From Sipunculus nudus (lineage: Eukaryota > Annelida > Sipuncula > Golfingiida > Sipunculidae), in assembly GCA_026874595.1 (NCBI GenBank), contig CM049311.1:63821453-63885452 (forward strand): 64,000 bases of DNA, in the 5' to 3' direction. Below are positions 1 to 45,239 of this stretch, piece by piece; position 1 is the first letter of the stretch, and each line of letters starts with the position of its first letter. The notes below the pieces were generated by a model. That model made no database searches. It was not told the DNA's origin and was given only the letters and a program-made list of their open reading frames with translations. The position numbers and the translations under genes are program-made.

Positions 1-318
1 ACTTAATTTTTGGCATGTACACAGAAAATATATATATGGAATATTTATGCAAAATATAAACAAAACAACAAAGGTGGTTTTAATGTAAGGAACCCTTGAA
101 GTGTAACAACCAGCGGATTTACTGGAAAATGGGGGTCACCCAGTTTGGGTTTGTTAGAAGATCTTCAAGACATCTGACTGTATTTAGAATTACAGATTCG
201 TAAGAAAAACAGTTTCGAAACTTGCCCTGTTAACGGACGGCCGGATGGCACGCCACACTGACGACGGACAAAGAACCATCGTTATACAACTCAAATGACT
301 TATAGTCAGCTAAACTAA
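1..318 (+). mobile_element. Family-1 Helitron-like element, 3' part
   Basis: Truncated by the window edge. It carries the family's spacer (GGCATGTACA, gacatctgactg), a GGACGG-rich stretch and the terminal stem-loop at 288-316, here degenerate but with the central TGACT-tat-AGTCA stem intact. A second element begins at once at 319. Confidence 0.6.
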
Positions 319-1866
319 CAAGTGGCCCATTTGCCATGACGCTCAGCTGAATTTAAGGAACCTTAAACTATGGAAAACATGACTCCAAATGTGCTCAAAA
401 CCATGCATTTGGCCAATAGACCTTAGATCATTTTGCCCGTCTGACTTATAGTGTAAAAATCATGTTGCAGAATATAGGTCACAGTGAAATTTTTTCAGGT
501 ATCCAAGAAATTTATACAGGAACTTCCCTGGATCTTAAACAAATTAGAAGTTTCTAGGTCCAACTGTAACCAATCATGCAAATATGTTCTATAGGGGTGC
601 TCAAATCTTGTTCTTTCATATATCTTGCAGAACATAGGTCACAATAACCTAATTTAAAGTTTCCAAGGAGATTTTCTTAGAACATTTAGAGGATTCTAGG
701 TCAGTTACATTTTGTGCCTTGTTAGCGGATGAACGCTTCTTTTGGAGGTTTCAAAAACAGAGAAAAATTTACATAATAAAAATATAAAAAATACAGGTGG
801 CGCCACTTATCTACAGAATCTGATGAAACATTCCATGAACAATATGCATGCAAAGAATCATGGCGATCAATGTATTAGTTATCCAGATACTTGAGCTTTT
901 GTATCATTTTTTTGAATATTCGGGGGGGGGGGGGGGGGTTGGTTACTTACGAGCGTCATAGCTCGTAGGTTATGGGTAACAGAGACATAATTTCAGGTTT
1001 CCAAGGAGATTTTCTATGGACCTCACTGGATGTTAACTTAGAAGATTCTAGCCCTGTTGACGGACAACCGCTTCATTTGAAGGTCTCAAAAATAGTGAAA
1101 ACACTAAATAAAACCCCGCATGAGAAACTAATACAATTGCTGTCAGTGACGGTCTCAGAAATAGAGGGAAAATGTATGAAATATAGAATAAATAAATGTG
1201 GTGCCTGCAGTCAGAATACATAAATATTTTATACATGATTTTATCTAAAACATAAGCTGGATATTTTATTTTTATTTTTAATGTTATTTTTCGTTATTAT
1301 GTTTCTTTTCCACTCTGCTTATATACCCTAAGAGCTCAGTCTGTTAATACAGTAAATCTACTAGCTTCTCACAGTCCATTCATTGCTAAAGGGCCAATAT
1401 TTCAGGCAAAAATCATTTAAGTAAACTTGAAAGAGGCTACATAAAAATAATGTTTGTGCAAAGTTACAGAATTTATGACAAGAGTTCCGCCAAAGATGAC
1501 TATTGCAGCGTTCATTTTGATACTGGCTTATTTGGCCACAAGACAAACTTCAGCTTCCCATAACTCTACGAAAAATCAACGAACGCGATCAGCTCTTATA
1601 CAATTGAGAGAACCTTGCTCTAAAATAATTCTTGTGAAAAATTAAACCATTTGGTAAGACAGTAACAATTTCAATGTGGAAGCTGAAAGAGGCTAAATTA
1701 CCAGGTATCTGCCCATAAAAACAGGTCGATGTAGGATGCGCCACAAAAACCTCAATTTCAAACATGAGTTATGTGACCAATGGTGTCAAAACGTGCCAGT
1801 CTTACAGACGGACAGATGCTGACTGAATCCTATAGCTCAGTTGACTTGCAGTCAGCTCAGCTTAAA
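319..1866 (+). mobile_element. Family-1 Helitron-like element
   Basis: Starts with a diverged copy of the left end CAAGGGACCCATGGGTCA then GCTCAGCTGA, and ends with the TATAGCTCAG stem-loop (1834-1862). Inside is one unit of the 340-bp repeat (about 795-1100, beginning GGTGGCGCCAC) and the family's 3' spacer. A poly-G run (923-938) and short open frames are not coding. Confidence 0.55.
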
Positions 1867-6021: not shown

Positions 6022-7020
6022 CTATACTATACTATACAGAAGGTAGGTGAATAGCTGGCTTAAATTCAAGCAAAATGGTATCTGAAGAATGCGTGGTCTG
6101 GCAGAATCAATGGGCGTGAGATATTACATCACACCTAGTACAAGCCACACACTGTGGGATTTTTTTGTAAATATATAATATACATAACAAGAGTCAATAC
6201 AAATGTGAAGATATGACCCCTTTTAATCCACTTACAATTAACAGTATGAGGAATTAATGATGACAAAATATGTAACAGGGCTGCAGGGGTTGTATGTTTT
6301 GGCTTAGTGATTATTACATAACTGAGAGATATGGTGTTGGAGGGGTGTTTACATTAAGACATTATACACAAATCCCTGGCAATTAAAGAAACAAACGTGC
6401 AGTATAAGGTGACAGGTGTTCATAATTAATTTGCTTTCTGACAGACAAGTTCAAGTACACCATCTCACTTGTTGATGGGCGGCCAAGCATGAATTTGCAA
6501 CATATATATGTATGCTATAAATTTCATGGGTTGGGGCAGGTATGTGTCTTGTAATTAGGCATATAGTAAAGGCTACCAGAGCAAAAAATATAGAAGTGTT
6601 CATACACTAGACGTCAATACTTTTTTTCATGAATAAAACCTAAGTGATTCATTAAATATTTATACATATATATTTGAGATTGATGAAAATGTGAAATCTC
6701 AAACTACTATCTTGTCCTTTGAGTCAATCCGAACTAGTTTTCCTAAGAGCACAAAACAAGTTTTCAAAGTTTTCAGTCACAGACAAAAAGTAGAGATTTT
6801 CAAATGCTGAAGCCCTGTGACAAATCAATCCCTATGTACTTGGGAATTAGTGTAACTATAAGTTACTGTATACAGTATCTCAACACACTGAAACTTCCTC
6901 TTACATCCTGTAGTTGTACTTCAAACTGTGTTATAGCAGCCACAAACACATAATCACGAATGTCCCTAAAGAAAATTTTTTTTTCTTCTACCATGCTTGT
7001 GATACTAGGCTAGAAGTTAA
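4859..7020. other. Intergenic AT-rich DNA, no gene seen
   Basis: No coding signal or known element was recognised. It contains one (AT)n microsatellite at 5969-6020. Confidence 0.5.
5969..6020. repeat. (AT)n microsatellite
   Basis: About 26 AT units with one interruption. Confidence 0.95.
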
Positions 7021-7051
7021 CAAGGGACCCATGGTTCATGGCGCTCAGCTG
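7021..7051 (+). mobile_element. Solo left end of Family-1 element
   Basis: A copy of CAAGGGACCCATGGTTCATG followed by GCGCTCAGCTG. No matching right end follows before the next left end at 7328, so it is a relic or truncated copy. Confidence 0.5.
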
Positions 7052-7327
7052 TTATATATGATAAAAAAAAATGATTTAGAAATGAGGCACATACTGGTTT
7101 TGTGTGATATTCAAATACTTTCATCTTTACCTGAATTCCCATTCTTATGCAAGAAATTTTATAATGATTCATGTTCGTATTCATATACATTTGCAAAGTA
7201 TTCGCACCAGGTCTGGTGTTTATTCAGTTTTAGCCAAACAATGATGTTGAGAATCCAGAATATACGAAATTCACAAATTTAAATAATGATCATAAGTACC
7301 TTGTTTTATGGCTTTTATTTATATAAA

Positions 7328-8870
7328 CAAGTGACCCATGGGTCATGACGCTCAGCTGACTGGGAAGAGATTCGCAAAAGGAAATTTTATCAACTGAATG
7401 GTAGTATTTACCCATTCAACTGAAGCATCAAACAGATTAACCAGCAGGCCAAGATTGTGTCTGTATTTATATATCTCAAAAATAGAGAAATACTTAGAGA
7501 ACTTAAAAAAATACTGGTGGCTCCACCAGTCTGCAGAAACTGATAAAAACACTTAATGGTCAATATCCATGCAATAATCATGGTGATATCTGCATTAGTT
7601 GTTCAGTTACTTCAGCTTTTGTAACAAATTGTCCATTATTCTGAGGGATACTTCGGAGTCCTATAGCTTGAAGGATATGGGAAACAGAGACCTTATTTCA
7701 GGTTTCCACAGACACTTTTCATGGGCCTCCTTGCATGACAAGAATGAAGATTCTAGGTCCAGTTGTTACGATTTGTACCTTGTTTACAGATAACCACATC
7801 TTTAAACGTCTAAAAATAGAGAAAAAAAAATCGTAAAAATTTGAAAAAAATAGAGGTGGCGCACCCGGTCTGCAGAAACTGATGGAACACCTCATGATCA
7901 ATATGTATGCCAAAAATCATGACCAACAGTGTTGTAGTTATTGAGATACTGCAGTTTTTGTATCAAATTTTTCATTATTCTGGGGAGTATTTTTGGAGCC
8001 ATACAGCTTAAAGGATATGGGTAACAGAGACCTAATTTAAGGCTTCCATGGAGACTTTTCATGGGTCTCCCTGTGTGTCAAGAATGAAGATTCTAGGTCC
8101 AGTCGCTACGATTTGTACCCTGTTGACAGATAACTACATCCTTAAAGGTCTAAAAAATAGAGAAAAAAAATTGAAAAATGTGAAAAAAAAATACATGTTG
8201 CGCCTGCAGTCTGCAGGAACTGATGGAGCACCTCTTGATCAAAAAGAATGCCAAAAATCATGACCATCAGTGTTGTAGTTATTGAGATGTTGCAATTTGT
8301 TTTTATCAAATTTTCCATTATTCTAAGCTGTACTTTGGAGTGCCATAGCTCAAAGGATATGGGTAACAGAGACCTAATTTCTGGTTTCCATGGGGAGACT
8401 TTTCATAGGTCTCACAGTGTGTCAAGGATAAAGATTCTAGGTTCAGTCTTTACGATTTGTGCCCTGTTAACAGATGTTCACATTTTTTAAGGTCTCAAAA
8501 CAGAGAAACAAATTCGTAAAAAATTGAAAAATACAGGTGACGCCAACAGTCTGCAGGAACTGATGGAACTATTCATGATCAATATGTATGCCAAAAATCA
8601 TGACCATCAGTCATGTAGTTAATGAGACATTGAAGTTTTTGTATGAAATTTTTTAGTATTCTGGGGGGTACTTTCGGGCCCCATAGCTTGAAGGATATGG
8701 GTAACACAGACCTAATATCTGGTTTCCAAGGAAGTTTTTTTTTGACCTCTCAGAATGTCAAGTTACAAGATTCTAGGTCCAGCTGTTACGACTTGTGCCT
8801 GGTTAATGAACAGACGGACAAAGAGTGATCGCTATAGCTCAGATGACTTACAGTCAGCTGAGCTAAAAAA
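7328..8870 (+). mobile_element. Family-1 Helitron-like element with four 340-bp tandem units
   Basis: The left end (CAAGTGACCCATGGGTCATG then CGCTCAGCTGA) and the right stem-loop (8836-8864, followed by AAAAAA then T) are both intact. The interior is four tandem units of about 338-343 bp, starting near 7513, 7854, 8197 and 8535. Each opens with a GGTGGCGCC-like box followed by a CAGTCTGCAG motif. No protein-coding capacity. Confidence 0.75.
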
Positions 8871-10311
8871 TAGGTCACTATACAGGTGAGTGAAGAGGGG
8901 CTGGGGAGAGCCTGGGTCTGACATGGTCTCATAAAAACATTAATAAAAGCTACAATTTTTGGCCAATTTCTTTCAGCTGTCTAAACTAAAAAGCTGAAAT
9001 TCTTATGTGTGCATGATATGAAAATTATATCAACAGTGCTCACAGGAAACAAAAGTGCAATGGTCAAAATTTAAGGTACTAATTTTATATTTATATAATA
9101 ACTTAAAAAATTTTAAAAATCCAGAACTAATTTTGATTATTCAATTGAATCTTGATTAAATAATGTTACTTGCCTTACAAAAAATCTCTAGCTTCAGCAA
9201 TCCTCTTGTTAAGGGAGTAAATATATTTCTTTATTTTTTTTACAAAGTGCATTATGTTTGGGCCCATAACTTAAAACAATTACGCAATACTGACATCATT
9301 TCTGGCATGTGCATAGCGAATGTATAGAAAAATATGTATATAATATATGATCAAAGTAAGATCAGTGGTTTTGATATTAGGCCATCTTGTGTAACAATGG
9401 GTTTTTAATGGAAAAATGAAGTTTATCATTAATATCTCAAAGGAATTAATTCCTAGTAGCCAAATTCTTGGCATGGAAGGGGATTTTGGAGACATCTAAC
9501 TGTATGCCAAATTTTAGGAACTGAGAGCTGAAGCTGGGGAGCTGAGCTCTAGCAAACTGCATAAAACTAACTTGATGTAAAAAATATGCAACATGGTGCT
9601 TGAAAACATTAACAAAATCTACAGTTGTTGATCAACTGGTTTTAAAGTTTTGGTGTTAACAGATGAAATGCTACCAAAAACATGCTGTGAAAATTAAATA
9701 GACAGCAGTTACAATGTGCCATGGTCAAAGTTGGGCCAAATTTCAGGTACCAATTTATTATTTTTACTAATAATTTAAAAAATTTAAAAGATTCTGATCT
9801 AATTTAGGGTATACAATTAAATTTTGATTAAGGTTATATTACTGGAAAAAAGTCCTTAGCTTTAACATGTTTTGTGTTAAGTGATCAAATATCTTTCCTG
9901 GTTTTTTACAAAATGCATAATGTTTGGGCCCATAACTTTTTTTTAAATTATATAATACAGACCTAATTTCTGGCATGTACATAAGAACTATATAGAGGAA
10001 TATTTATGGTAAATATTAGGAAAAACCGATGAGAGGTTTTGATATTAGGCAGTCCTGAAGTGTGAAAATAGGTTTTAATATAAAATTGAGGTTTTTCCTT
10101 AATTTCTCAAAGGAACAAAGTCGCAAAGACCCAGTTTTCGGCTTGGTAGGAGATCTTGGGGACATCTAACATTATGCTGAATTTAGTATTCCCAGGACTT
10201 ACAGTTTCAAAGCGTGCCTGTTTAACGGGCAGACAGAGGGACGGACAGCCAGCCAACGGACAAAGGACCAAAACTATAGCTCAGATGACTAATAGTCAGC
10301 CGAGCTAAAAA
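8871..10311 (+). mobile_element. Family-1-related element, two ~700-bp units
   Basis: Two diverged tandem units (about 8930-9580 and 9580-10311) share the blocks ACATGGT..ATAAAA.CT, GTGCCATGGTCAAAGTTGG, TTTGGGCCCATAACTT, GGCATGTACATA and GGGGACATCTAACTGTATGC. The second ends in the Family-1 stem-loop (10278-10306) and AAAAA before T. The left terminus is not recognisable. Confidence 0.6.
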
Positions 10312-15600: not shown

Positions 15601-18600
15601 AACACAATAAATAGTGATTTCACATAGCTTGATGATATATGATGTCATATTGACTGACGTCCTCAGCTGGAATTGCCATACCTCTGTTCTCCAGTGATGA
15701 ATATATCTCAGTCACTGTGAAATGTTTGGCCATATTTTGAATTGTTGGTCTCATACAAATTAGGTTACAGGTAAGACATTATTATTCACTCGGTAGTCGG
15801 CAGAATGACTCCTGCAACCTTTGGCCTAGAACTTTTTATACTGTCTCGTTTGTATAAAAATATTCTGGAAAACATGCCGACACGGCTACTCATACAGACT
15901 ACATGTGTTCTGTTTGGGAGAGACACCCAAATAAGCAAATTTTTTGCTTGTGGGATAATTGACCGATTACTTTGCAAATGGTAACTTGATTGATTACTCA
16001 CAACTGCTCTGCTCATAAGTATTCATTGAATGAATATGCGATAAAGGTCACATAGGGTTCATGGATAGGTGAACTGTAGCAGGAACAAAACTGATCTCAT
16101 CCAGAATTCTATTCTGAATATCCCGAGCTCACCTATATCAAAAACGATTCTCTTCAGTGGAATTAAACAGCCGGAAACAAAGGTGGACATATGACTGCAT
16201 GGTTTGAAACCTTTCAATGTAAGTATTTAACAGTTTAACAAGGGCCTAAGGACACAAATAGTCCCCCACCATATGTTTAACTAGGAAAGTGTGGCATCAG
16301 CGATGGGGCGGGATGGACGGTTGAACAAACAGAAGGATGGGCAGTCAGATGGACATCTGAGAACGACAGACAGACAATAACATTTTAGTAGTCCTTCCTT
16401 ATTACAGCAGGGGACTAATGAGCAATGTGCCATCTGCAAAGAAAATATAAGACATCTATAAATCATATCATAGTAATTACATCTCTTACTTTGGGATGGT
16501 AAATTCTGCTGCCTTTATTTTGCGGAATAGCTCTTGTGGACGACTGTCATAGAACGGGAACTGTCCATACAGCATGGTGAACAACACCACTCCCAGGGCC
16601 CACATGTCTGACGGCTTGCCCAAATATGGTTTCCCTGAAACAAAAGAAGAAATTTAAGAAATTACTGAAGGTCAATATGGCAGCCATCTGGTTATTAAGA
16701 TGATTACTAATAAGAATGTAGGGGGAAATTATTCTGAAGAAAATGGATGAGGTGTATTTTAATTCATATAGTGTTCAATAGTGACACTAATATTTTATGG
16801 GTTTCCATTAAGTACCCCAATGTATGCTTTTTACCAATCTTATATGAGGAATTTTAAAATAACAGTGCGACTTATATTTATAGAAATGTGCCACATAGTT
16901 GCTGGACAATAAAAGGACGAAAATGCTCGGCTCTTTCTGCTAGCCACCCATGTGCGATCCCTATCATGGCTTTGAGAGTGGGTTGTAGTTCCCTGTCCAA
17001 GAGTGGTGGTTTTCTCCAGTTTACTTCACCCCTACACACTACCTAATGCCGGCATCTGAGCCATGGAGAGAGCAGCGAATAGTTATAATAACTACATGTA
17101 TTTGTAAAATCTATGTAAAATAAATAAGTTTATATTTATAACATGTACATACCACTGAGTACATCTGGGCTGATGTACGCTGGACTTCCACGCTGATCCT
17201 TAAGGAGGTCCGTTTCGCTGACTAGATGCTTACCAAGACAAAAGTTAGTGATTGTTACCCTCTTGTTCCTCTTGTTTAGCACCATGTTTCCAAGCTTAAG
17301 ATCTCGATGAACAATATTACTCTGAAAGGTAATTAAATAATAAATTTAACTACAAGCACTGGTGATTCATTGATGAACTGATGTATCACTGTACAGCAAA
17401 CACACTCTGACAATACATATACTGACACAGACTCAAGTATCAATATTTCAGGAAACAACCAGATGAGCTATGAAAAAAAGAGAGGTTTGGTTCTCAGGCA
17501 CTTTTTTTTTTATCAGAAATCCATCTTTTTTTTATGTTCAAAGAAAAGCATGATAATAACAGATTTTCTTGCTAAAAAGTAAAAGCACAACAAAACAAAG
17601 GAAATTTTATCGAAATTGTATTATTCTTTCTTCTTGAAACAAATGTCTGGGTGGCTGGAGCTCAAAATTGGTAAGTTACTATTGAAAATCAAAAATATTT
17701 AAAAACCATACCTTTTATTTTTTGGCCCTATGCATAATATTTTGTCAAAATCAACCATGTACATAACAATTTCTCAAACCAGAATAAAAACCACTCACAG
17801 GCAGGAAAAACAGAGTACTTCCTAGATGTCATAAATGTATTTGTTTAAAATACAAGCTCACAATACTTAGCTCCATCAACAAGACAATGTATATGGCAAA
17901 AGTTCTAAAATATCATTGACTGGGCTATTTTGTAAATGAATGAAATATCATCACAGTGTCAGTTACCTGCTGGGACTGCCACCTGCAGATAATTTGTTAA
18001 AGATTTATCATCTTGTTGTAAGACAACAGGGTCACCAGGGTGAAAACTTTTTGCAAAAAAAAAACCAAAGCAACTAGATATTGGTGCCATAGTATCTGTA
18101 GACAATTACCCCCCCCCCCCCCTTTTAAGAAAAGCCCCCCCCCCCATCTTCAGCAGCATATACTGACACTTGGCAAGCAACTATGGTTTCTTCCAGTCTA
18201 CAACTTGAGAACAATATTTTTCACCAAATATGGGGGCCAACATGGTGAATCACTCTTGAGAAAAGGGGATTAATTTATACTATACAAATGGTAAGGTAGG
18301 TGGCGCCACCTGTCTGGTTGGTGGGAAAAATCTCCAAGCTTGATGTACATGCTAAATTGGAGACCAACACATTGAAGGACTCCTCAGATATGAGCAATTT
18401 TCACCAATAACAAATGTACAGTTGGACACCACACCAAAACAAGGGACCCATAGGTCACGGCGCTCAGCTGATCCTGATTGGACAATAAATGTATCACCAT
18501 TGTGATACTATATTGAGTAGATAAAGCTTAGAATATCATGGTCATGTTGGGTTTTATAAAGGAATATAATGTAATATGTGAGTAAATGATATATGAAATA

Positions 18601-19811
18601 ACCTGACTGATGGATTAATATGGAGTAAAATATAGTGGTTTATTTTTTATTTATTTGGGAGGAGTCGAAAAAAGCAATTTATTTGAGCAAATATGAATGC
18701 AATGACAGTATGCTAAGCAGTGGTATAATGATGATAAGGCTATTTGTTGAAGGATCTATAGTGTATGGAAAACTGCAAGAGTTCAATTTGACAGATAAAA
18801 GGTTATGATTAACTATACTGATGAGGGGATTTATGAATTTGTGACTGTATGACATAATATCTTGACAAGATCGGTCTTGACAAGGTGCATTATTTTGATG
18901 CCCCTCACGTCTACATATTACATAATATTGACATAATTTCTGGCATGTACATAGGTACCTATGGACAAATGGTCAACAGTACTGAACCACCTGGAAGGTT
19001 AAAATCTTAAAAATATGATGAAATGTAGATAATGTTTGAGAGGAAGAGGTAATCTGGGCCATGGTTGGTTTATATGATTGAAGAAAATGTTGCAAATAAT
19101 ATTTGAGACCTGACCATGCCTTTCCATTGGTTACCTTTTTGATAAGCTGTTGACAGTTCAACAGTTTACACATTTGTCTGATGAGATCCAATTTATTTGG
19201 TAAACCTTTTTTATCAATTTTATGATATGTATACAGTTGCCATAACGTCCTCATTCCACAGGTGCAATGACTTGATAGGGGGGGGGGGGGGAGGGGTGTT
19301 GTGTTATGATCAGAGTTACAATGCCTCTGTCTCTCTGTAGATATTTTCTTTAATTATTAAATTTTATGCTATAGCCATAGAGCTATTGTTCACAGTGCCA
19401 AGGAGCAAAGCCTCAGTGGGATGAAGAAGGGGATGGTGAGAGTTACAACACCCTTGCATATACATACAGGATATGAAATTTAATTCAACAGTGCTTATAA
19501 AAAAAAGTTTATTCATGAACATTAAATATTTAAAACAGAAAGAAAGATGGAGAAACAAAGCAAATAATTTTTTTCCCCATTCTACTGAGCCAAGAAAAAA
19601 ATAACAATATTTGCATTTAGTCTTTTTTTCATTACATAATTTTAATCCAAGTTTTCGGATGTTACTATAAATTTACAGTATAACATACATGTGATTGTGA
19701 ATATTTCAGTTGATTCACATTTCTATATTGCATCAACATTTATAGCTAATGTATCTAGTTTATAGTACCTGTCAACAGAATGGGATGGAGGGAGCAAGGG
19801 AGGCAATTAGG

Positions 19812-19843
<32 letters not shown>

Positions 19844-22800
19844 GAAAGATGGAGAAAGAAAGAGAAAAAGCAGAGGAGAGAAAGAGAAAGAGAGACCTAG
19901 GCTGCCAGGGAGAGAGAGAAAGAGAGGCTCTCTGGTAATTACTGCCTGACCCAGCCTGACCCAGACACTCACAGTGGCAGTAGGTCAGACCTGAAGGTGT
20001 TATGTAACTGCCAAGTACACTGCATTTATACTGATCTGATGCAAACAATGAAGACATGGTACCTGGAAACTTGAATAAAATCTACAGTTTTTGATCAATT
20101 GGTTTCAAATTTCAGATTTTAACATAAAATGTTAATGTGTACATGCTGTGAAAATTATATCCACAGGAAAAATTTGAATATTTATATTTTTTTAAATGGT
20201 ATCCGGAAAACAAGAAAAGTATTCTCAGCTATAAAACTAATACATGTGTTAAAATTAATCCAAGGATCAAAACACCCAATATATCATACCAGGAGCAAAC
20301 TGGAGTTGGGAATGTTTAATTTTATGAACTGAAATAAAGGACCAGCAATATAAATTTTGATTATTTAGCCAGTCTCATGTAACAACTGATACAACCATGA
20401 GTTATAAGTCAAACAAATTAAAATCTTTAATGAACACTTGTCTGAGTAATATTTTAAATTTTTGAAATATTTATTTATTATTTTAATTTTGTAATAAACA
20501 TAAACCAACAAGTTAAAGACCTGGAAAAGACCTGGAAATTTAGATTAATTATATATAACTAACTGCATCCTTGTCTATCATTATCTTGCTTCATATAATC
20601 CCTAATAGTAAACAACAATTTATTTTAATTATTTATTTTTCATTTTTATGGTTGAAATGAAAAAAACCCAATGGTGACTGCATGGTGTTATTTGAAATAC
20701 AATGTTGGCCATCCATGGAAGATCCATAAATGATCAGTAATTGCAAGGTAATCCCCTGTAACTTATTAACTATAAATTCCTTTTCCATTTATTTTTTTAA
20801 GTTCTTATCATAAACCAAATATTAAAAAAAAATTTATTGTTATGTTTATGGCCTAAACAAATACTAGTGGAGGGGGTTGGACAGTTAGATCCAGTTGAAG
20901 CCACCCAAGAGCTGGCTGGCTGCAGAGTGCCTGGCTTCAAGCATGCATAATTGGCCTGAAAGGTCAATGTGGGGACATAAAAGAGGAGCTCCAGTACAGC
21001 CAAGGTGTGATATGGTCTCATAAAAACTTTCATAAAAGCTAGTTTTTGACCAATTCCTTTTATAACTTCAGAATTTAGAAGCTCAAATCCTTACCAGTGC
21101 AAGATATGATAATTAAATCAACAGTGCTTACAGGGAAAAAACATGCCATGGCCAAAGTTGGGCAAAATTTAAGGTACTGATTTTATATTTATGCTAATAA
21201 ACTTATAAAATTTGAAAAATTCAGAACTAATTTTGGGAATACAATTGAATCTTTTTTAAATAATGTTATATTCCTGGCAAAAAATGTCTACCTTCAGCAA
21301 TTTTCATGTTAAGAGAGTAAATATATTTCTTGATTTTTTACAAAGTGCATTATGGTTGGGCCTAGAACTTAAAACAATTACACAATACTGGCATATGCAT
21401 AGCTAATGTATAGAAAAATATGTATATTATATATTATCAAAGTCAGATCAGTGGTTTTGATATCAGGCAATCTTAAAGTGTAACAATGGGGTTTTAATGG
21501 AAAAATGAAGTTTTTTCTTAATATCTCGAAGGAATGCAGTCCTAGTGACCAAACTTTTAGTATGGTAGAGGATTTGGGGGACATCTAACTGTATGCAAAA
21601 TTTAAGGAACTTAGAGCTGAAGCTGGGGAGCTGAGCTCTAGTAAACTGCATAACACTAGCTTGGTGTAAACAATATATGACATGGTGCTTTAAAACTTGA
21701 ATAAAATCTACAGTTTTTGATCAACTGGTTTCAAATTTTTTGTTTTAACAGTTGAAATGGTAACAAAAACATGCTTTGAAAATTAAATCCACAGCAGTTA
21801 CACGAAAAAAACGTGCCATGGTCAAACTTGGGCAAAATTTAAGGTACCAATTTTATATTTTTGCCAATATTTAAAAAAATTTAACAGATTTTGATCTAAT
21901 TTTTGGTATACAATTCAATTTTGATTATTTAAAGTAGTATTACTGAAAAAAAAATTCCTACCTTTAACACTTTTGTTCTTAAGTGACAAAATATCTTTCC
22001 TCATTTTTTTATAATATTTGGGCCCATAACTTTTTTTAAATTAAATAATACTGACTTAATTTCTGGCATGTACATAGGAACCATATAGAGGAATATTTAT
22101 GGTAAAAATGAAGAAAACCAGATGAGTGGTTTTGATATTAGGCAGTCCTGAAGTGTGAAAATAGATTTCTTATAAAAAATTGAGGTTTTTCCTTAATATC
22201 TCGAAAGAACTAAGTCATATTGACCCAATTTTTGGCATGGTAGGAGATTTTGGGGACATCTAACTGTATGCCGAATTTCAGATTTGTAGGTCGAATGGTG
22301 TCAAAACGTGCCAGTCTTACGGACGGACATCCAGACGGACAGACGGACGGACAGACGGACGGACGGACAGACGGACAGATGACGGACAATGGACCACGAC
22401 TATAGCTCAGATGACTTATAGTCAGCTGAGCTAAAAATGGCATCTATGAATATCTATGGACATGCATAAAGATCTATGGACAGGCACAGTTTCAAACCAA
22501 TATGGCACACCACTCCTATGAAAAGAGCATTAATTCATTCTACGGAAATGGAAAGGTAGGTGGCACCACCTGTCTTGTTTACGAGAAATTTTCCAAGCTG
22601 ATAGACATGCCAAATTTAAGACCAATACCTTGAACCATTCCGGAAATATGAGCAATTTTCACCTAAAGCACATGTACAGATGGCCTTGGCAAGACCATTG
22701 CAGATGGCACCACCAGTCTTGAGTATGAGATGGAGGAGTCCAAGATCTATGGATATGCACAATTTCAGGCCAATACAGAAAACCACTTATGAGAAAAGAG

Positions 22801-25800
22801 CATTAATGTATTCTGCAAAATCAGGAAGGAAGGTGATGCCACCTGTCTGGTCTAAGAGATTACTCTCCGAGATGGATGGACATGCCAAATTTCAGACCAA
22901 TACATTGAATTTCACCTAAGATATGAGCAATTTTCACCCACAAAAATGCACAAATGGATGTCAAGCGGAAAGGACTGCAGATGGTGCCAACAGTCTTGAG
23001 TACAAGATGGAGATATCCAAGATCTATGGACATGCACAATTTCAGCCCAATACATTGAACCAATCACCAAGAAGAACAGATGGGAAATGCACAGATGGAA
23101 GCCATGTGAAAATCGTTGTAGGTTGTGCCACCAGTCTCTAGTACAAGATGGAGAGATTTGTAAGGCATAACTTCATAGGTGAGGGAATAACTATGCTGGG
23201 TTTCAGAAAAATCTGTCCAAGTTCTGTTTCTCTGGAAACAATGCAAGGGCGGAACCCATTGAAAACATAATATCTGCAAAACCCTGGTTTGGTGGATACA
23301 ATTATAATCAATCATTGGGAAATCACTGATTACATACCTCATGAAGCATTTCTACAACCCTGACAATGTCACAGAAAATGACTATGGCCTGTTTCTCATT
23401 CAGTTTCTTCTCTTTGATGACATAATGCTGCAAGTTGATGAGATCTGCTGTTTTGTTACTGAAGTCATGTGGGGTCAGACAGTCCAGAACCAGACATATC
23501 CGTCGCTGGACTCGCCCTGTGTATTCAACTTTTCCACCCGGCCACAATACATCTCTTTCCTCCAGGGCCTCATCCTACAAATGATAATATTCAAGGGTTT
23601 CAATACATGGACAAACGTAGGTCTCTACTGACCGGTTCTATAACCTTCATCGCTGGTCAGTTGTGTCCTGCTCTGTCCACAAATGAACTATAATTCATGA
23701 GGAACAGTGTGATCATAAACCATTTAAAAAACTGTAAAATAATTTCTACCTCTGCCAGGAGATAATGTTTTGACATTTGTTTGTTTGTCTGCTGGCAAAA
23801 GAACTCAACTAGAATATCAGCAGATGCTGACAAAAGCCCTCAGCCAAAAGAACAGTGTTTATAGGTGGTAACAGTAACAAGTACAATATATTTGTTCTCT
23901 CATGGACGTATATCTGTACATGTCTCAGTTATAAATTCAAACTGGAGAGGTATGTACCATGTTTCATAACAATCCATCAAATACTTATAGAAGATATCCT
24001 GCTCACAATGCTATGTTGAAAAATCCGATAAAAAATCATTAAAAATCAGAAATTGTAGGTTGTTCTACCAAACTTGTGCAGCAATTACAGACCATAATTC
24101 CCAATGACCATAGTAAGTTCTGTGAAAATCCACCCAATGGTTCTTGACAAATAAGCTTTTAGGTGTTTTTCTAAAATCAGGTCTTAAATGTAGAAAAATA
24201 GGTCAAGGTCACCCATCTTGAACTTGACCCAGTTATTGTAGATATATATCTTCCCCAAAGAAATACAATTCCTATGGTTAATCCTTTAAGAGATATCCAA
24301 CTCACAAGGCCAAAGTTAAAAAATCTGATAAAAATTCATTAAAAATCAGAAATTGTAGGTGACGCTATCAAACTTGTGCAGCAAGTAGAGACCATAAGTC
24401 CCAATGACTATAGTAAGTTTTGTAAAAATCAACCCCATGGTTCTTGATAAATAAGCTTCTAAGTGTTTTTTCTAAAATCAGCTCTTAAACAAAGAAAAAT
24501 AGGTCAAGGTCACCCATCTTCGAACTTGACCGAGATTTTGTCGATATACATCTTCACCGAAGCAATAAAATTCCTATGGTGAATCCTTTTACTACTCACA
24601 AGGTAAAAGTTAACGGACACCGGACGGAAGGACAGACAGCTTGGTTGACAACAATAGCCCATCAGCCTAAGGGCTGAGGGCTAAAGAGTTACCAACACAA
24701 TTTCATGAAAGTTTGTAAGAGTGTTATTTTAGTTTTGTAATGATTCAGATCAAATTGGGCAATAATTTTCCCCTCTCTCCTTTCTTCTTCCCTCCTTTCC
24801 TCATTCTTTTCTCAGTTTTTTTCTATAGTGATCTGAATTTACATCTGGTTACAGGTATTTTATATCAGGGGCCTAAATCTTTTTTTTTGGCACAGTTATT
24901 AGCTCTAATGTATGCCTTTTAGTTTGAATATGTGTCCATATTTCTTTCTGGGATAACTAATTCATAACCTTTTCCCAGATCAGTCATCAAAATAAAGTTT
25001 GACACTGAACGAGTACAGATTGCAAGATATAATATATAACCTAAGTACTTTTTTCAGATACTTGTTGAAGGGTATTGCTGCATTTCTTGCTGAGCGCTTT
25101 GAATATAGTGAGTAAACATGTCAGCAAACGAGCATTATCTTCACAAAAACTGTTAAAAAATGTTTCCCTCTGCTGGATGTTGTTATTTTGTTAATCATTT
25201 GTATGAGTCTGAAGAGTTACCTTGAACAGCCCATGGTGATGGATGATGCCGTCCTGGTGATGGAGAAGAGATAAGAGGGAGTACTCTGTGTGCAGCAGCA
25301 TCTTCCCCTGCCTCTCATCCTGATTCTCCTGCTTCCCATTTCCAAGTGTCAGGATCTGTATAATATTAATTTATACATAATAACATTAACAATATGTAGT
25401 GCTCAGGTCTATTAGGTTCAGTTTTAATGCTGTTTGTTGCTTTGTGTCCCATCCCTCTTATCTCTCTGATTGGGTAAGGATATTTTTTTCTGGTTAATAT
25501 GACTTGTATTTATATACATACATAATCATTTGTTAATAATTTAGCAAAAATGTAACCAATTTAATAATTGATCATGAAAGGAAATGAGAAAAATTAATTA
25601 ACTGATTAAATGACACACCAATATTTAAGATGATGATATGCATAATAATGTTACCAACACTAAGTGTCAAGATCTGTATGACTGGATGACAAATATTCTC
25701 AGTATGACATGACAATCAATGACCAACTGATCTTACCAATACAATGAAATAAATAATAACATGAATCATATTTCAAGTTAAGAGTAACAAAATGATATAC

Positions 25801-28800: not shown

Positions 28801-31800
28801 TTACAATTTAAGTGCACAGGTCCCCCTTTAGCCTGGCTTTAAATACTGGTAACAATAGAGTGTAATAGTGTAATCCAGTTGCCAACCCTATGCACACTGA
28901 AAAAAAGTTAAAAATTAAAAATGAGAGAAAGCTATCCAAGATGTATACATATGCAAAATTTCAGGTGGATAAGTCAAACCACTGTTGAGATATGAGTGAT
29001 TTTTACCCTAGGCAGATGAACAGATGGACACAATGCAAAAATGGTTGTAAGCTGGGCCAGCAAATTTGTTAAAGCTGTAAAGCTATGCAAGATCTATATT
29101 CATGCAAACTTTCAGGCTGATACGTCAAACCAGTCCTGAGATATTAGCATGGATGTCTGCAGGGTCATTGATGTAGGTGGCGCCACCTGCCATAAAATTG
29201 AGAAAGCTATCCAAGATGTATAACCCTGCAAAATTTTAGACAGATAAGTCAAACTACTACTAGGATATGAGTGATTTTTATCCCAGAGAGACAAACAGGA
29301 TGCTATGCAAAAATGGTTGCGGGTGGCACCATCAGTGTTGTGTATGATTAAGAGCTATGTGAGATTTTTACATATACAAAATTTCAGGTAGAGTTGGCGG
29401 AACCTGGTCAAAAACATCGTATCCACAAAACTGTTTTGGCAGATACAATTAATATGAGACCCATGAACTATACATCATTTAAACCTGGTTATTCCTCTTC
29501 ACAACCTTTACTGGTATTATATATCTTCAGATCAATCTTTTTAATTTCACTGTGTGGAACAGGGATTTGGGGACAGCTGAAGCAACCCACCTTGAGTGTA
29601 TAGAAGTCATCGGTGCCTTCCTTTCTGGCCAAACATTGTACAATACTCTTGACTGGAGAAGCTCCTAGCCTGGGCCCTGGTCAAGGAAACGGAAACACAA
29701 TTATCTTAAAGCTCACTTTGATGTTAACACACCAATGGTATAGTTTACCAGATGTATAGCGTCAGACACTAAGTATCCGATACTTCTGAAAGAGACAATT
29801 TTTTTGGTGAAAATAAGCAAATCTGCTGCTGCATTAGTTAGAGAGAGAGCATGTTGTTACAGAGAGCATTTTACCATGTGATATGTCCCTACACATGATA
29901 TGACAGTCGTAACTTTTTCTTTTCTTTTTTTTTATATTTTTTGTTGTTGGAGGTTACAGCCTCATTTTTTTAATGCTAGCTAACCTAAATTCTGTGGAAG
30001 TAGTTAATTTTTTATGAATTTCCATGTTTTTTTTTTCATTTTACAGCATTAGCACAGTTTGAGCTACACTGGTGCAAAATTATAGCCTGATAGGTCAAAC
30101 AAATCCAAAGATATGTTGGTAAATGTATAAACACAGACGCACAGATGGACACACTGCATTGAGGAAAGGTCAGAGGTCAACTCAAAATGGTTAGGCACCA
30201 GGTCACATGTGACCCGATAGTTGGGTTAAGTTTCAGAACAAGGGACCCATGGGTCACGGCGCTCAGCTGAAGTTTGAAATTTTTGCAATTGCAAAATATG
30301 CAAAATATTCTACTGTAATGTTTTTCATTTATATAAGAATATGAGAAGTTAAGAGGAAAGGGGCCCTCCTACTTGGTAATAGTAAAGTTCTAAATATATG
30401 ATTGCAAACTAATACTCTGACAAGACTGTCATGAAGAAAAACAGTAAAAGTTTTGAGATACTGTGATGCATATAAAATTACAGATGGACAGGCAAGTAAA
30501 CAGAATGGACTTATACCTTTATTTCACTTTCAAGGGAATAATGCATTTAAGTTTATATATAAGCCTTTTTTAACATTACCACTTTTCCATTAAAAGTTTT
30601 TATCTAAATCATTTTTTTACAAGTTTTATAAATTTTTAATAAAAAAAATGAAAATATAAGTTAAAATATTAGAATTGTTGCAAAAGTTGCAATCATTATA
30701 TATCCAGAGTAAAATAACTGAAAATATAAGTTAAAATATTAGAATTGTTGTAAAAGTTGCAATCATTATATATCCAGAGTGTAGCTCATATTGGGTCATA
30801 TTATGCAGGGCAGAGGGAAAGCCTGCTGGTAGTGGCCAAGCTGTGCCAAGGCAAGCTGCCTGGGGTGGGTTACATTTCTGCACTTGACATGGTGTATGAA
30901 AACTTGAATAAAAGCTACTCTTTTCAATCAATTCCTTTGATATTTCAGATTTTAAAAGATTAAGTCCTTATGTATATATGCTGTGAAAATTAAATCAATA
31001 GTGCTTACAGGGAAAAACGTGCCATTGCCAAAGTTGGACAAAATTTAAGGTACTGATTTTTTATTTATGCTAATAACTTGAAAAATTTGCAAAATTCAGA
31101 TCTAATTTAGGGTAAACAATTGAATCTTGTTTAATAAAGTTATATTCCTGAAAAAAAGTCTCTAGCTTCAGCAATTCTCATGTTAAGTGAGTAAATATAT
31201 TTCTTGATTTTTTAAAAATTGCATTATATTTTGGCCCAAAATAATACACAACACTGATCTAATTTTTTTAATGTTCATAGAAAATGTATGGAAGAATATG
31301 AATACTAAATATGATCAAAAACAGATCAGTGGTTTTGATATTAAGCAGCCTTGAAGTGTAACAATGGCTTTTTTATGGAAAACGGAGGTTTTTCCTCAAT
31401 ATCTTGAAGGAACGAAGTTCTAATGACCCAATTTTCGGTATGGTAGGAGATTTTGGGGACATCTAATGGTATGCAAAATTTTTTAATAGTAGGTCCAACG
31501 GTTTCAAAAAGTGCCCTGTTAACGGCCGGACGGCCGGATGGACAACGAACAATGGACCACAACTATAGCTCAGATGACTTACAGTCAGCTGAGCTAAAAA
31601 TTGTTCCAGTAGTCTCAGAGTTTTCTTGAAACCAATACGGCAGCAGCAGAACTGGGTCAAAAACATAGTATCCGCAAAACTTTGCACTGGCAGATACAAT
31701 TTATACCCTGCTAACAAAACCAATTCCACAGTATATGTATATCTGCAGAATTCCATTCCAATTTTGGACTAGGTGACAGGGCAGTATCACAAGCTTCCTC

Positions 31801-33369: not shown

Positions 33370-34570
33370 ACTGGTCTGGCAGGTCTACTCTTGAGGTCTA
33401 AACAAGATGATCTCAGTCTTGGAATGGCAGGTCCACTCTTGATCTCTTAACAAGATGGTCTCAGTCTTGGTTTTGCTGGTCCACTCTTGATATCTAAATA
33501 AGATTGTCTCAGTCTTGGTCTGGCAGGTCCACTCTTGATCTCTAAATAAGATGGTCTCAATCTTGGTCAAGCAGGTCCACTTTTGATCTCTAAATAAGCT
33601 GGTCTAAGTCTTGGTCTGGCAAGTCCACTCTTGATCTCTAAATAAGATGGTTTCAATCTTGGTCTGGCAGGTCCATTCTTTATCTCTAAATAAGATGGTC
33701 TCAGTCTTGGTCTGGCAGGTCCACTCTTGATATCTAAGTAAGATGGTCTCAGTCTTGGTCTAGCAGGTCCACTCTTGATCTCTAAATAAGCTGGTCTCAG
33801 TCTTGGTCTAGCAGGTCCACTCTTGAACTCTAAATAAGCTGATCTAAGTCTTGGTCTGGCAAGTCCACTCTTGATCTCTAAATAAGATGGTCACAGTCTT
33901 GGTCTGGCAGGTGCACTCTTGATCTCTCAATAAGATGTTCTCAGTTTTCATCTGGCAGGTGCATTCTTGATCCCTCAATAAGCTGGTTTCTATCTTGGTC
34001 TTGCAGATCCACTCTCTATCTCTAAAGAAGATGGTCTCAGTCTAGGTCTTGCTGGTCCACTCTTGATCTCTCAATAAGCTGGTTTACATCTTGGTCTGGC
34101 AGATCTGCTCTTTATCTCTAAATATGATGGTCTCAGTCTTGGTCTGGCAGGTCTACTCTTGATCATGATAAGATGGTTTCAGTTTTGGTCTTGCTGGTCC
34201 ACTCTTGATCTCTCAATAAGCTGGTTTTATTCTTGGTCTGGCAGATCCTCTCTTTATCTCTAAATATGATGGTCTCAGTCTTGGTCTGGCAGGTCAACTC
34301 TTGATCTCTAAATAAGATGGTCTCAGTCTTGGTCTGGCAGGAGCACTCTTGTTCTCTCAATAAGATGGTCAGTCTTGGTCTTGCTGGTCCACTCTTGATC
34401 TCTCAATAAGCTGGTTTCATTCTTGGTCTGGCAGATCCGCTCTTTATCTCTAAATATGATGGTCTCAGTTTTGGTCAATCAGGTCTACTGTTGATCTCTA
34501 AAAATGATGTTCTCAGTCTTAGTCTGGCAGGTCCACCCTTAGTGTCTCAATAAGATGTTCTGAGTTTTTA
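33370..34570. repeat. 48-bp minisatellite, about 25 copies
   Basis: The unit contains CTTGGTCTGGCAGGTCCACT, CTTGATCTCTAAATAAG and ATGGTCTCAGT. The unit length is 16 codons, so one minus-strand frame stays open over several units with a repeating peptide (TKTETILFRDQEWTCQ-like). Copies differ by scattered substitutions, and subgroups (CAATAAGCTGGTT variant) alternate in the right half. It lies upstream of the STK40 start codon. Confidence 0.95.
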
Positions 34571-35500: not shown

Positions 35501-35784
35501 TTATTTTGTACAGAAATTACAGACAGTTATCATTTTAAACCAATCAGTTTATAATATATTTTCATGACTTCATTTTATTTTTATGTCAAGTAAAACAGAC
35601 ATATAATAATGTTACAAAAGGGGATAAAATGTAGAATCAGAAAAGATGTTAGTGGAATAAAAGCTGTTAGTTTGTACACATCTACACGTCCATTAATGCC
35701 AGTTTTTGGCTTCAAATTTAAATTTACACCAGTGTTTCTTGGTGTTTCATCACAGATACCCCTATTGTCCGTTATTCAGATAAG

Positions 35785-38207
35785 CATCCACAATCTTTAT
35801 TAAGAGGTTTCCTGTGACCTTGACCTTTGACCTCATGACCCAAAAATCAATTCAGGTCTTGCTTTTCCAATGGGACATATACAAGTCAAGTTTGAAATCC
35901 ATACATCAATAAAAGCAGGAATTATCATCCAGAAACTAATTTTTGGACAGATGGCTCCTGTGACCTTCACCTTTGACCTTGTGACCTCAAAACTGATAGG
36001 GTTCTTCCACTCTTGGCAGGTGAACTATATGGGCAAGATGAAAGATCTGAGATGAAATATTTGGCTGAAAATGCATCCACAAGCTTTTTAAAGAGGTTTC
36101 CTGTGACCTTGACCTTTGACCTCATGACCCCAAAATCAATTCAGGTCTTGCTTTTCCAATGGGACATATACAAGTCAAGTTTGAAATCCATACATCAATA
36201 AAAGCAGGAATTATCATCCAGAAACTAATTTTTGGACAGATGGCTCCTGTGACCTTCACCTTTGACCTTGTGACCTCAAAACTGATAGGGTTCTTCCACT
36301 CTTGGCAGGTGAACTATATGTGCAAGATGAAAGATCTGAGATGAATTGTTTGGCTGAAATTGCATCCACAAGCTTTTTAAAGAGGTTTCCTGTGACCTTG
36401 ACCTTTGACCTCATGACCCCAAAATCAATAAAGGTCTTGCTTTTCCAATGGGACATATACAAGTTTGAAATCCATACATCAATAAAAGCAGGAATTATCA
36501 TCCAGAAACTAATTTTTGGACAGATGGCTCCTGTGACCTTCACCTTTGACCTTGTGACCTCAAAACTGATAGGGGTCTTCCACTCTTGGCAGGTGAACTA
36601 TATGTGCAAGATGAAAGATATGAGATGAATTGTTTGGCTGAAATTGCATCCACAAGCTTTTTAAAGAGGTTTCCTGTGACCTTGACCTTTGACCTCATGA
36701 CCCCAAAATCAATTCAGGTCTTGCTTTTCCAATGGGTCAAATACAAGTCAAGTTTGAAATCCATACATCAATAAAAGAAGGAATTATCATCCAGAAACTA
36801 ATTTTTGGACAGATAGCTCCTGTGGCCTTGACCTTTGACATTGTGACCCCAAAATTTATATGGATTATCCACTACTGGCAAGTGAGCTATATATTCAAGA
36901 TGGAAGACCTGGGATGATAGTTTGGCTTAAAATGCATCCACATCTTTTTAAAGATGTCCTGTGACCTTGACCTTTGACCTCATGACCCAAAATTCAATTT
37001 TGGTCTTGCTTTTCCAATGGGACACATACAAGTCAAGTTTGAAATCCATACATCAATAAAAGCAGGAATTATCATCCAGGAACTATTTTTGGACAGATGG
37101 CTCCTGTGACCTTCACCTTTGACCTTGTGACCTCAAAACTGATAGGGGTCTTCCTATATTGGCAGATGACTTATATGTGCAAGATGAAAGGTCTGAGATG
37201 AAATGTTTGGCTGAAAATGCATCCACAATCTTTTTAAAGATGTGTCCTGTGACCTTAACCTTTGACCCCAAAATCAATTGGAGTTTTGCTTTTTCAATGA
37301 GACATATATAAGTCAAATTTGAAATCAATACATCAATAAAAGCAGGAATTATCATCCAGAAACTCATTTTTGGACAGATAGCTCCTGTGGCCTTGACCTT
37401 TGACCTTGTGACCCTAAAGTTTATATGGATCATCCACTATTGGCAAGTGAGCTATATATTCAAGATGGAAGACCTGGGATGAAAGTTTGGCTTAAAATGC
37501 ATCCACAGTATCTTTTAAATTGCCAGTCCAGTGACCTTGACCTTTGACCTCATGACCCTAGAACCTATAGGGTTCTTACTTTAGTGGTGGGCCATACATA
37601 AGTCATGTTTGAAATCCATATGGCTATCAACACTGGAGATATCATAAGAGGTGTGTGATTTTCACCATATATGGCAATATTCAAGGTCAAGGCCACTATC
37701 ATAGGAAAGGTCATGACCCCAATTTAAATAAACATCATCCCATAACCCATACCTATGTATATGCATAATATAAAAGAAATCTGTCCATTAGTTTTTGACT
37801 TATAATGCTCACAGTACTGTAAGGTGGCAATTTTGGGGGTATTAAACAGCATGAAAACAAGTAGAGAACAATAGGTGGCGCCACTAGTTTCTGGAACATG
37901 ACAACCCCATCCATGATCTTCCATCAACTTGATTTTGGGATAAATCCATGCAAGATTTCTTGAGATATTAAAGAATTTGTGTGATTTTCCCCAAAATTGG
38001 ACCTATTCAAGGTCAAGGACACTCTCCTAGTAAAGGTCATGACCTCATTTTAAATAGGCGTCGTCCTCTTACCCATATCTATACATATACCAAGTTTGGT
38101 AAAGTTCCGTGAAATATTTTTTGGGTTATCGTGCCAACAAGATTTATATGTGGCGGCGGGACCGGTATGAAAACAGTATCCCCCGACTTTGTCTGGGGAT
38201 ACAATTA
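35785..38207 (+). mobile_element. Family-2-type element with ~289-bp tandem array
   Basis: Units of about 284-289 bp (starting near 35805, 36095, 36384, 36668, then more diverged copies to about 37570) contain TGACCTTGACCTTTGACCTC, TTTCCAATGGGACATATACA, GGAATTATCATCCAGAAACT and TTGGACAGATGGCTCCTGTG. A non-repeated 3' part has a GGTGGCGCCAC box (37875) and ends in a stem-loop 38176-38202 (GTATCCCC ... GGGGATAC) and AATTA. Open frames across the units are repeat artefacts. Confidence 0.85.
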
Positions 38208-39046
38208 ATGTCACATGAGATTTGTGGGTAAAAAATTGAGTTTTCATTAAAGTAATATATAAAAATATTACACATTACTTTAATAATAAATACAAACATC
38301 AGATTTAAATCCTTAGAAAACACTAGGCCTATAAACTGAATTAAATTAAGACTTTATTTTCACCTGTTATTACAGAAATTCCATGTTGTTTGTTAAAGGT
38401 AAGGAGCCACTATAGACCACAGGCTCCATAGCGAATGTAATCATGCAACCAACGTGCAAAATGTCTCAGAACCATGAACATTCCGAGTTTATAAAATGCT
38501 GAAAATATACAAGGGCTATGCCTAGGGTTGGATACCAGTTGATTCGTCACCACAGTCATTTCGTCACCAATTTACATGCGGTACCAAATGGTCAATTCGT
38601 CACCAATATTTTGTATGATAAAATGCTATCTATTACAATTAAAATTAAAACACACAATGATACCTATACTGAAAAGTTTGTTTGGTTGTTGATTCTTTTC
38701 ATTAACGGCTCAGGATACACCATGCAAGGAGTGGATTACATATAAATACAAACATTGCGCAGCATGGCCAACTGGCCGCCAATGGTATTCAGGGCTATTT
38801 ACGTCACTGCTCACCGCAAACGATTCCCCCTTGCAGCCCGCTTGAAATGTTCTTTTATTTCACACACAAAGGTGTTTTCGTTAATAAAATCCAAGGAGCC
38901 ACTATAGAACGCGGGCTTCGCTTCTATTGAGAAGCGTATAAATAAAATTGTCTCCTCTCATTCCCTATTTTAACTCCTACTTTTCCCTGTAGATGTCCCC
39001 ACACTCAACTCTTCTAACATAAACAACTACTTAGCATCAGAAGTCG

Positions 39047-39110
39047 CCTGAATCGGGAATCGAACCTACGATCTCTAGACTAGGAGCCCTAAGCGCTACT
39101 AAGTGAGCCG
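39047..39110 (-). repeat. tRNA-derived SINE head, copy 1
   Basis: The minus strand reads CGGCTCACTTAGTAGCGCTT ... GGTTCGATTCCCGATTC: A-box-like and perfect B box. The cloverleaf is incomplete, so it is not a functional tRNA gene. Confidence 0.7.
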
Positions 39111-39405
39111 TGAAGACGAGATACCAGCAAGAGCAAGTTTTGATGATTTATACATGCGATTGAGGAGGCATCTATCGCGAAAATGGGAAACCATTTACTA
39201 TTTTAACAGGAAATTTAAGCTTTAGGTGGGGGCTCCGCCCACACACCCCCGTTCAGAACACTATAGAACGCGGGCTTCGCTTCTATTGAGAAGCGTATAA
39301 ATAAAATTGTCTCCTCTCATTCCCTATTTTAACTCCTACTTTTCCCTGTAGATGTCCCTACACTCAACTCTTCTAACATAAACAACTACTTAGCATCAGA
39401 AGTCG

Positions 39406-39469
39406 CCTGAATCGGGAATCGAACCTACGATCTCTAGACTAGGAGCCCTACGCGCTACTAAGTGAGCCG
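39406..39469 (-). repeat. tRNA-derived SINE head, copy 2
   Basis: Same as copy 1 with one visible base change in the A-box side (CGTAGG for CTTAGG). Confidence 0.7.
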
Positions 39470-45033: not shown

Positions 45034-45239
45034 GTATATATATAGACATCTGTGTGCTTATTATGATGAAGATTCCATGCAGTTCTTACTGACAAATTAA
45101 AAAGGAGAAAAGTAAACTGTTAACTAGAATATGGTTAGTCGACAAGCGACTACGTGTATCCACCTAAAAAAGTGTGGTACGTGTGAAGTGAGGCATGGAT
45201 TGAGAGAAAAGAGTAAATAGAATGAGATGTGATGCATAT
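42707..45239. other. Intergenic DNA without recognised gene
   Basis: Contains a (CA)n run (43551-43574), a poly-G run (43782-43798) and an AT/GTAT microsatellite (44985-45045). A short Arg/Glu-rich minus frame near 44450-44545 has no support as an exon. Confidence 0.5.

Follow-up and report, generated by a model that had tools for sequence, protein, structure and literature searches.

The stretch analysed here, hereafter the window, comprises 64,000 nucleotides of Sipunculus nudus (GenBank assembly GCA_026874595.1, contig CM049311.1, positions 63,821,453 to 63,885,452 of the forward strand). At 18440-22437 it contains a repeat copy, termed copy A, that interrupts a tandem repeat of another family (family 2). 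Both ends were found exactly where an earlier note, made from the letters alone, had placed them. That note had proposed a rolling-circle element of the Helitron/Helentron type; the Helentron part of this assignment stood, as did the nesting in a repeat and the non-coding nature, whereas the termini of a canonical Helitron (5' TC and 3' CTRR with a hairpin ~11 nt inside) are absent from the family. Copy A is very probably a HINE, i.e., a non-autonomous Helentron. It is a further member of the known HINE/Helentron class, and the useful part of the finding is its Rep-bearing partner.

On the minus strand, the copies of the family have one layout, with letter changes in diverged copies: a T-run, the 5' subterminal inverted repeat (subTIR) AGCTCAGCTGA, a short loop, TCATCTGAGCT, a GTCY microsatellite and an array, followed by the 3' subTIR TCAGCTGAGC, the palindrome GACCCATGGGTC, CTTG and then Ts of the host. 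The subTIRs and the second palindrome were absent from the earlier note. The stem-loop followed by As, which had been taken for the end of the element, is a real hairpin, but the element is reversed, and the hairpin end is the 5' end on the minus strand, because this layout matches that of Cg_HINE and of HINE/DINE-1. The same orientation for copy A (5' end at 22437, 3' end at 18440) follows from the strand that is coding in the Rep-bearing copies described below. At its left end (18440), copy A has CAAGGGACCCATAGGTCA, which differs by one base from the start motif quoted in the note; that motif is present as quoted in the copy at 30239.

The 5' hairpin of copy A had a folding energy of -10.6 kcal/mol, with none of 500 shuffled sequences being equally stable, and the inverted repeat beside the 5' subTIR has 14-nt arms (93%) with a 3-nt gap. 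Among six 5' ends, the hairpin stability was matched by 0/500 shuffles in four, and by 10/500 and 54/500 in two diverged ends; at the 3' end, folding energies compared with shuffles were nothing unusual in all four ends. The subTIRs measured 10 bp in copies A and B and 13 bp in copy C, and in copy D were reduced to 5 bp exact. By chance, window pairs at equal spacing gave at least 10 bp in 13/2000 (A) and 7/2000 (B) cases and 13 bp in 2/2000 (C). The 3' palindrome was intact in B and C, with at least one mismatch in A, D and E. The microsatellite of copy A contains 16 RGAC within 150 bp (22248-22397), a richness equalled by 1 of 1277 background windows; it was strong in A and D, moderate in B and weak in C, E and F. 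The longest stop-free run in copy A was 126 amino acids (aa), and none of its five open reading frames (ORFs) of at least 90 aa reached the Pfam cut-off, in agreement with the claim that the element encodes nothing.

The window contains five left ends and six right ends of the family (Table 1). Allowing up to three mismatches, the left-end motif occurred 4 times versus 0.04 expected and the right-end motif 13 times versus 0.36 expected, the latter count taking in both hairpin arms. Central units of ~600 bp are common to copies A, B and D (two each in A and D, one in B), and fragments of this unit were also found elsewhere in A and in F. Copies C and E instead have 340-bp units in common; thus, two unrelated arrays occur within one set of ends. 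Between copies F and E (1-1866), just TT (minus strand) is present despite their differing arrays.

Table 1. Copies of the repeat family, parts of copy A and its host repeat in the window.
Feature	Position	Strand	Remarks
Copy A, very probably a non-autonomous Helentron (HINE), 3998 bp	18440..22437	-	5' end 22437, 3' end 18440
5' terminus of copy A: TTTTT, 5' subTIR AGCTCAGCTGA, complementary inverted repeat TCATCTGAGCT, hairpin	22393..22437	-	Folding compared with shuffles
GTCY-type microsatellite of copy A	22319..22388	-	RGAC count compared with background windows
Two central tandem units of copy A (21008-21606, 21678-22281; ~71% alike)	21008..22281	-	Common to copies D and B
3' terminus of copy A: 3' subTIR TCAGCTGAGC, palindrome (one mismatch from GACCCATGGGTC), CTTG	18440..18471	-	
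Copy B, one central unit, inside a further family-2 element, in its end module	30239..31600	-	Empty-site relatives at 46309-46327 and 23200-23219
Copy C, family ends, 340-bp tandem units, 13-bp subTIR, nested in copy D	7328..8869	-	
Copy D (7021-7327 and 8870-10311), split by C, two central units	7021..10311	-	
Copy E, diverged, 340-bp units, head-to-tail with copy F	319..1866	-	
Copy F, cut by the window edge	1-318		
Host, family-2 tandem repeat left of copy A, ends AAAA	18235..18439	+	
Host, family-2 repeat resumed right of copy A, begins TGG, closes with a hairpin-like module of its own	22438..23304	+	

A search of the assembly (1.43 Gb) with copy A reported 52 matches, among which at least 26, copy A counted, were full-length (base 1 to at least base 3972); these numbers are lower bounds, as the best 36 of 15734 candidates were scored. 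The 25 other full-length copies were retrieved with their flanks and were 94-96% identical to copy A. The mean pairwise difference was 2.4% and fairly uniform, with L016 and L017 differing by 0.05%; these two, and L012, L015 and L018, have common flanks and are duplicates or hitchhikers. All 26 copies start with CAAGG on the plus strand, and the opposite terminus AGTCAGCTGAGCT was exact in 24, altered in L027 and absent from L020. Thus, the genome-wide comparison recommended in the earlier note left its reading of fixed termini standing, with the number of terminal As varying. The idea of the 2.5-kb interior of copy A as private captured cargo was dropped, since the 25 other copies have the same interior; truncated copies were likewise dropped as a sign of replication polarity, since either end may be missing in partial copies. 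A repeat at 24050-24638 has relatives elsewhere (L012, L015, L018) that bear an A-type copy at one identical place, as if co-amplified with the insert.

Joining the flanks of copy A was said to restore an uninterrupted family-2 block. Such a block is present at 29026-29044, but it is the weakest of the empty sites, matching by eye in 12/16 letters on the left and in TGG alone on the right, and wider family-2 alignments have gaps at the junction. The closest empty site belongs to L009/L044, where one copy of the element has inserted into a second one and the empty form is ~97% identical over 300 bp: the uninterrupted relatives (e.g., L011, L034, L035, 97%) read ...AATATTTAAAAAAATTTAACAG, and the filled form is AAAAAA[element]TTTAACAG. 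The host of L028 is the internal part of a B-type copy, and the empty form of this site, AAAA|TGATT, was 91% identical over 295 bp to window 30474-30760. For L012/15/18, the empty form is GAAAAATAGGTC, with one base different at the junction. The relatives of the copy B site at 23200 and 46309 have 5 and 4 As, versus 2 in the left flank of B, so that B was seemingly inserted within the A-run. The absence of a target duplication, as claimed earlier, was confirmed at paralogous empty sites of non-autonomous copies, which were clean but for possible As; none beyond these As was found at L009/L044 or L028.

At least two As precede CAAGG in all 26 full-length copies (AA frequency 0.110), corresponding to at least two Ts on the 3' side. 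The terminal A-run was counted in 20 copies, leaving out L015, L017 and L018 as duplicates, L020 as degraded and L013 and L023 as atypical, and was 2 (5 copies), 5 (12) or 6 (3) nt long. It was followed by T in 17/20; this excess is modest (P 0.01 to 0.0003, with the grouping chosen after the data were seen) because T already follows 45-58% of A-runs in the window. The earlier statement that the element went between A and T applies to these 17/20 non-autonomous copies and to 0/3 of the Rep-bearing copies read, where G precedes the T-run. The consistent feature is a T-run at both ends, which on the plus strand is an A-run.

With A-runs trimmed, the two flanks of the 26 copies matched over 0 letters in 7, 1 in 14, 2 in 1, 3 in 3 and 6 in one copy (L027), compared with 49, 38, 9 and 3% for 0 to 3 letters and 0.9% for 4 in a mismatched-pair control; no flanking repeat was consistent over the 26 copies. 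The 6-letter repeat of L027 was set aside as a target duplication: ATGAT already flanks the A-run on either side in the empty form (window 7019-7109), so most of the repeat pre-existed and no duplication is needed there. A short interspersed nuclear element, or another A-tailed retroposed unit, would account for the A-run at the right end and the A-rich target; it is extremely improbable for an element of 4 kb with tandem repeats, both ends fixed, a tail of almost constant length and no consistent duplication (none of 5-15 bp at the empty sites), in a window where neither an Rfam match at gathering score nor an ARAGORN tRNA was found.

The earlier note had further suggested a search for an autonomous Rep/helicase copy sharing both ends; such copies were found (C17, C5 and C10). 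With the Helitron_like_N profile, the genome gave at least 143 match rows, many in long open frames (scoring covered the best 150 of 195 candidates, and some rows are fragments of a single locus), and four long Rep frames were retrieved (L045, L046, L047, L048). The L048 frame, at C17, is an ORF of 2342 aa with a family 3' end 1 kb downstream and 5' ends upstream. It matches Herpes_teg_N, DUF6570, Helitron_like_N and PIF1, with Exo_endo_phos below the Pfam cut-off (20.5 vs 24.5 bits); the similar L047 frame has Exo_endo_phos_2 above cut-off. The Rep motif of L048, FYR-VEFQQRGSPHIH, reads FYRVEFQQRGSPHIH and has both S and FYR, which are Helentron marks according to Thomas et al. (PMC4067079).

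Compared with copy C, the 5' end at C17 is 93% identical over 57 bp and the 3' end 97% over 33 bp; compared with copy A, the 5' end is 91% identical over 34 bp (an internal second 5' end 95% over 38) and the 3' end 84% over 32. The last 1,023 bp at C17, from the stop codon to the 3' end, recur at 98-100% in six places, C17 included, and in five of the six this stretch begins, by subtraction, 3.68-3.74 kb past a same-strand Rep match. At these five matches, the frames are open over 2342 (C17), 1124 (C5), 676 (C10), 571 (C9) and 895 aa (C1). Both ends were read at three Rep-bearing loci, measuring 14,888 (C17), 16,131 (C5) and 15,732 bp (C10) end to end. Their outer 5' ends begin TTTTTAGCTCAGCTGACTGAAAGTCA, with the flanks beyond being unlike at the 3/3 loci read. 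At the other end, the flanks diverge directly after CTTG in the six copies ending so (C17 and 5/6 fetched loci), starting with at least two Ts in five and with TG in one. The 3' flank at C10 reads as a D-type 3' end, and the A-type copy L027 is likewise inserted in such sequence. The possibility that the outer 5' end was a neighbour's had arisen from 0/42 match rows at other Rep-bearing loci (best 40 of 1388 candidates scored); it was settled for C5 and C10 by reading these loci.

These copies bear on the orientation originally proposed, in which a canonical Helitron would run from a 5' CAAGGG to a 3' hairpin followed by CTAA, inserted strictly between A and T. It would explain the hairpin before the right end, the CTAA after the stem and the T after the terminal A-run in 17/20 copies (background 0.45-0.58). 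However, CAAGG rather than TC starts 26/26 copies, the hairpin overlaps CTAA instead of lying ~11 nt ahead of CTRR, the Rep frame, with its Helentron Rep signature, is on the opposite strand, and a G precedes the T-run in 3/3 Rep-bearing copies. This makes a canonical Helitron very unlikely.

Several observations weigh against the assignment of copy A to the Helentrons and against its link to the Rep-bearing copies. Helentron/HINE criteria include subTIRs of 11-15 bp, with the microsatellite and central tandem repeats being frequent but not obligatory; the 10-bp subTIR of copy A is shorter than the 11-bp limit in the family definition of Thomas et al., while copy C has 13 bp. No Rep-bearing element with copy A's own repeats was found, and the 3' end of copy A has only the 84% identity given above to that of the Rep-bearing element. 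The C5, C10, C9 and C1 frames are shorter, so those copies may be broken, the long frame being shown in C17 only; C17 was read through, and the reading at C5 and C10 covered the stretches at the two ends. The likeness of the 5' ends of Rep-bearing copies starts at the G before the T-run, so that their first base is placed approximately. At two loci, C8:69023921 and C17:37211172 (L058), no Rep was listed in the vicinity, and CTTG is missing from L058. L047, 92.8% alike in the frame, carries a 340-bp array and a 5' end that is degraded; a 3' end was not found within the 19,991 bp read. Finally, at C5 (L061, L053), AGTGCG is present directly before the 5' T-run and after the 3'-side Ts, possibly as a chance repeat or as a 6-bp duplication, the latter being unpredicted by the model; a flanking repeat of this kind was found neither at C17 nor at C10.

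The AGTGCG repeat would suit a miniature inverted-repeat transposable element (MITE) or other cut-and-paste element, as would inverted repeats near both ends and a non-coding sequence in many copies. This interpretation is nevertheless highly improbable, with inverted repeats that are subterminal, empty sites without duplication, no consistent flanking repeat in 26 copies and ends that are common to a Rep-helicase element.

In the 10 kb read for L045 and L046, which extended just ~0.6 kb upstream of the frame, neither family end was found. They represent a different Helentron-type family, with frames of 2235 and 2229 aa and an OTU protease domain in L045.

Taking copy A as a HINE, its family would have moved by rolling-circle transposition, as is proposed for its known relatives. 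By analogy with these, a Rep protein supplied in trans would nick at the T-run beside the 5' hairpin, the PIF1 helicase would peel off one strand as far as the 3' palindrome near CTTG, and the displaced single strand would be joined into a T-rich target, leaving no duplication. Copy A was likely moved by exactly the C17-type Helentron. The Rep-bearing copies at C17, C5 and C10 carry units of the 340-bp type (C17: 66-82% to copy C), located in the 5' part of the element, and copies C and E are probably deletion derivatives of the C17-type Helentron. Copies A, B and D share its ends but not its interior; therefore, they would be cousins of the Helentron, or relatives of another subfamily using the same machinery.

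C17, C5 and C10 also have a further 5' end in their interior, at corresponding positions. This internal end with its array could reflect either two initiations on one template or one element in the T-run of another. Tentatively, and with the odds against it, the satellite-like arrays of HINEs may derive from the Helentron itself, in the order [5' end-array, no 3' end][5' end-array-Rep-3' end], as if rolling-circle initiation had fired twice on one template. If so, Helentrons could produce and disperse satellite DNA through repeated firing, and two questions in mollusc-type genomes would then be linked, namely, what mobilises HINEs and how their arrays arise. The Rep-bearing Helentrons of this genome have 3' regions that are 98-99% alike, one long open frame, and the ends and kind of array of some HINEs. 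With Rep-bearing copies that have HINE ends and arrays, both the partnership and the birth of arrays are directly testable.

Family 2 (18235-18439, 22438-23304, 28925-29454, 30061-31705, 45223-46430), the host of copies A and B, is composed of 264-273-bp tandem units. A conserved hairpin-like module closes its blocks (AAAACATAGTATCCGCAAAACTCTGTTTTGGCGGATA at 46388, with variants at 23260, 29398 and 31660), and family 2 looks like a second HINE-type family. Elsewhere in the window, two arrays of ~288-bp units with AGGTCAAAGGTCAAGGTCA-like runs (35784-37558 and 54090-55909) lie in opposite orientation ~17 kb apart, a 48-bp unit is present in 25 copies at 33372-34565, and two copies of a 359-bp unit, 97% identical to each other, occupy 38900-39616. 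An exon-like ORF at 58195-58848 with a Major Facilitator Superfamily match was the sole one of 40 ORFs of at least 90 aa past the Pfam cut-off; weak matches to DIL, Myb and similar families were below it and were rejected.

Exact and degenerate end patterns found no relatives beyond the own genome in viral_contigs or genome_contigs, nor did a distant phage search with the last 838 bp. A literature search, with supplements outside its scope, found no published account of the element, and the match examined from a text search with the end motifs was a primer.

The Helentrons and HINE/DINE-1 elements of mite, mosquito and Drosophila (PMC4067079) resemble the family in their ends, a T-run target of variable T number, a Rep-PIF1-endonuclease frame, the S in the Rep motif and HINEs that are deletion derivatives; they differ from the 10-bp subTIR of copy A and from the tandem array and second internal 5' end of the Rep-bearing element. 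Helentrons with a herpes-tegument-like deubiquitinase domain are reported, among others, in molluscs (PMC9741609), and the Herpes_teg_N-like domain in the C17 frame, known here from a profile match, is of this kind. Bivalve pearl elements (PMC7492417, PMC11136912), by their descriptions, have short flanks and central tandem repeats as here, but repeats of ~160 bp in contrast to the 340/600-bp units; 'pearl'-type elements were originally described as MITEs (PMC7492417). In oysters, many satellite-like arrays reside in HINEs (PMC7492417). The closest likeness in layout was to Cg_HINE of Crassostrea gigas (PMC7492417), which shares with copy A a 5' subTIR with complementary inverted repeat, a GTCY microsatellite, a central satellite-like array, a 3' subTIR, a palindrome, a T-rich target and the lack of a duplication. 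Its group 2 has related ends with unrelated arrays, as found here, while its array units are 140-180 bp long, compared with ~340 and ~600 bp. Cg_HINE was not relatable by its authors to 10 Repbase autonomous elements (PMC7492417), whereas Rep-bearing elements with the ends of the family were found in the present genome.

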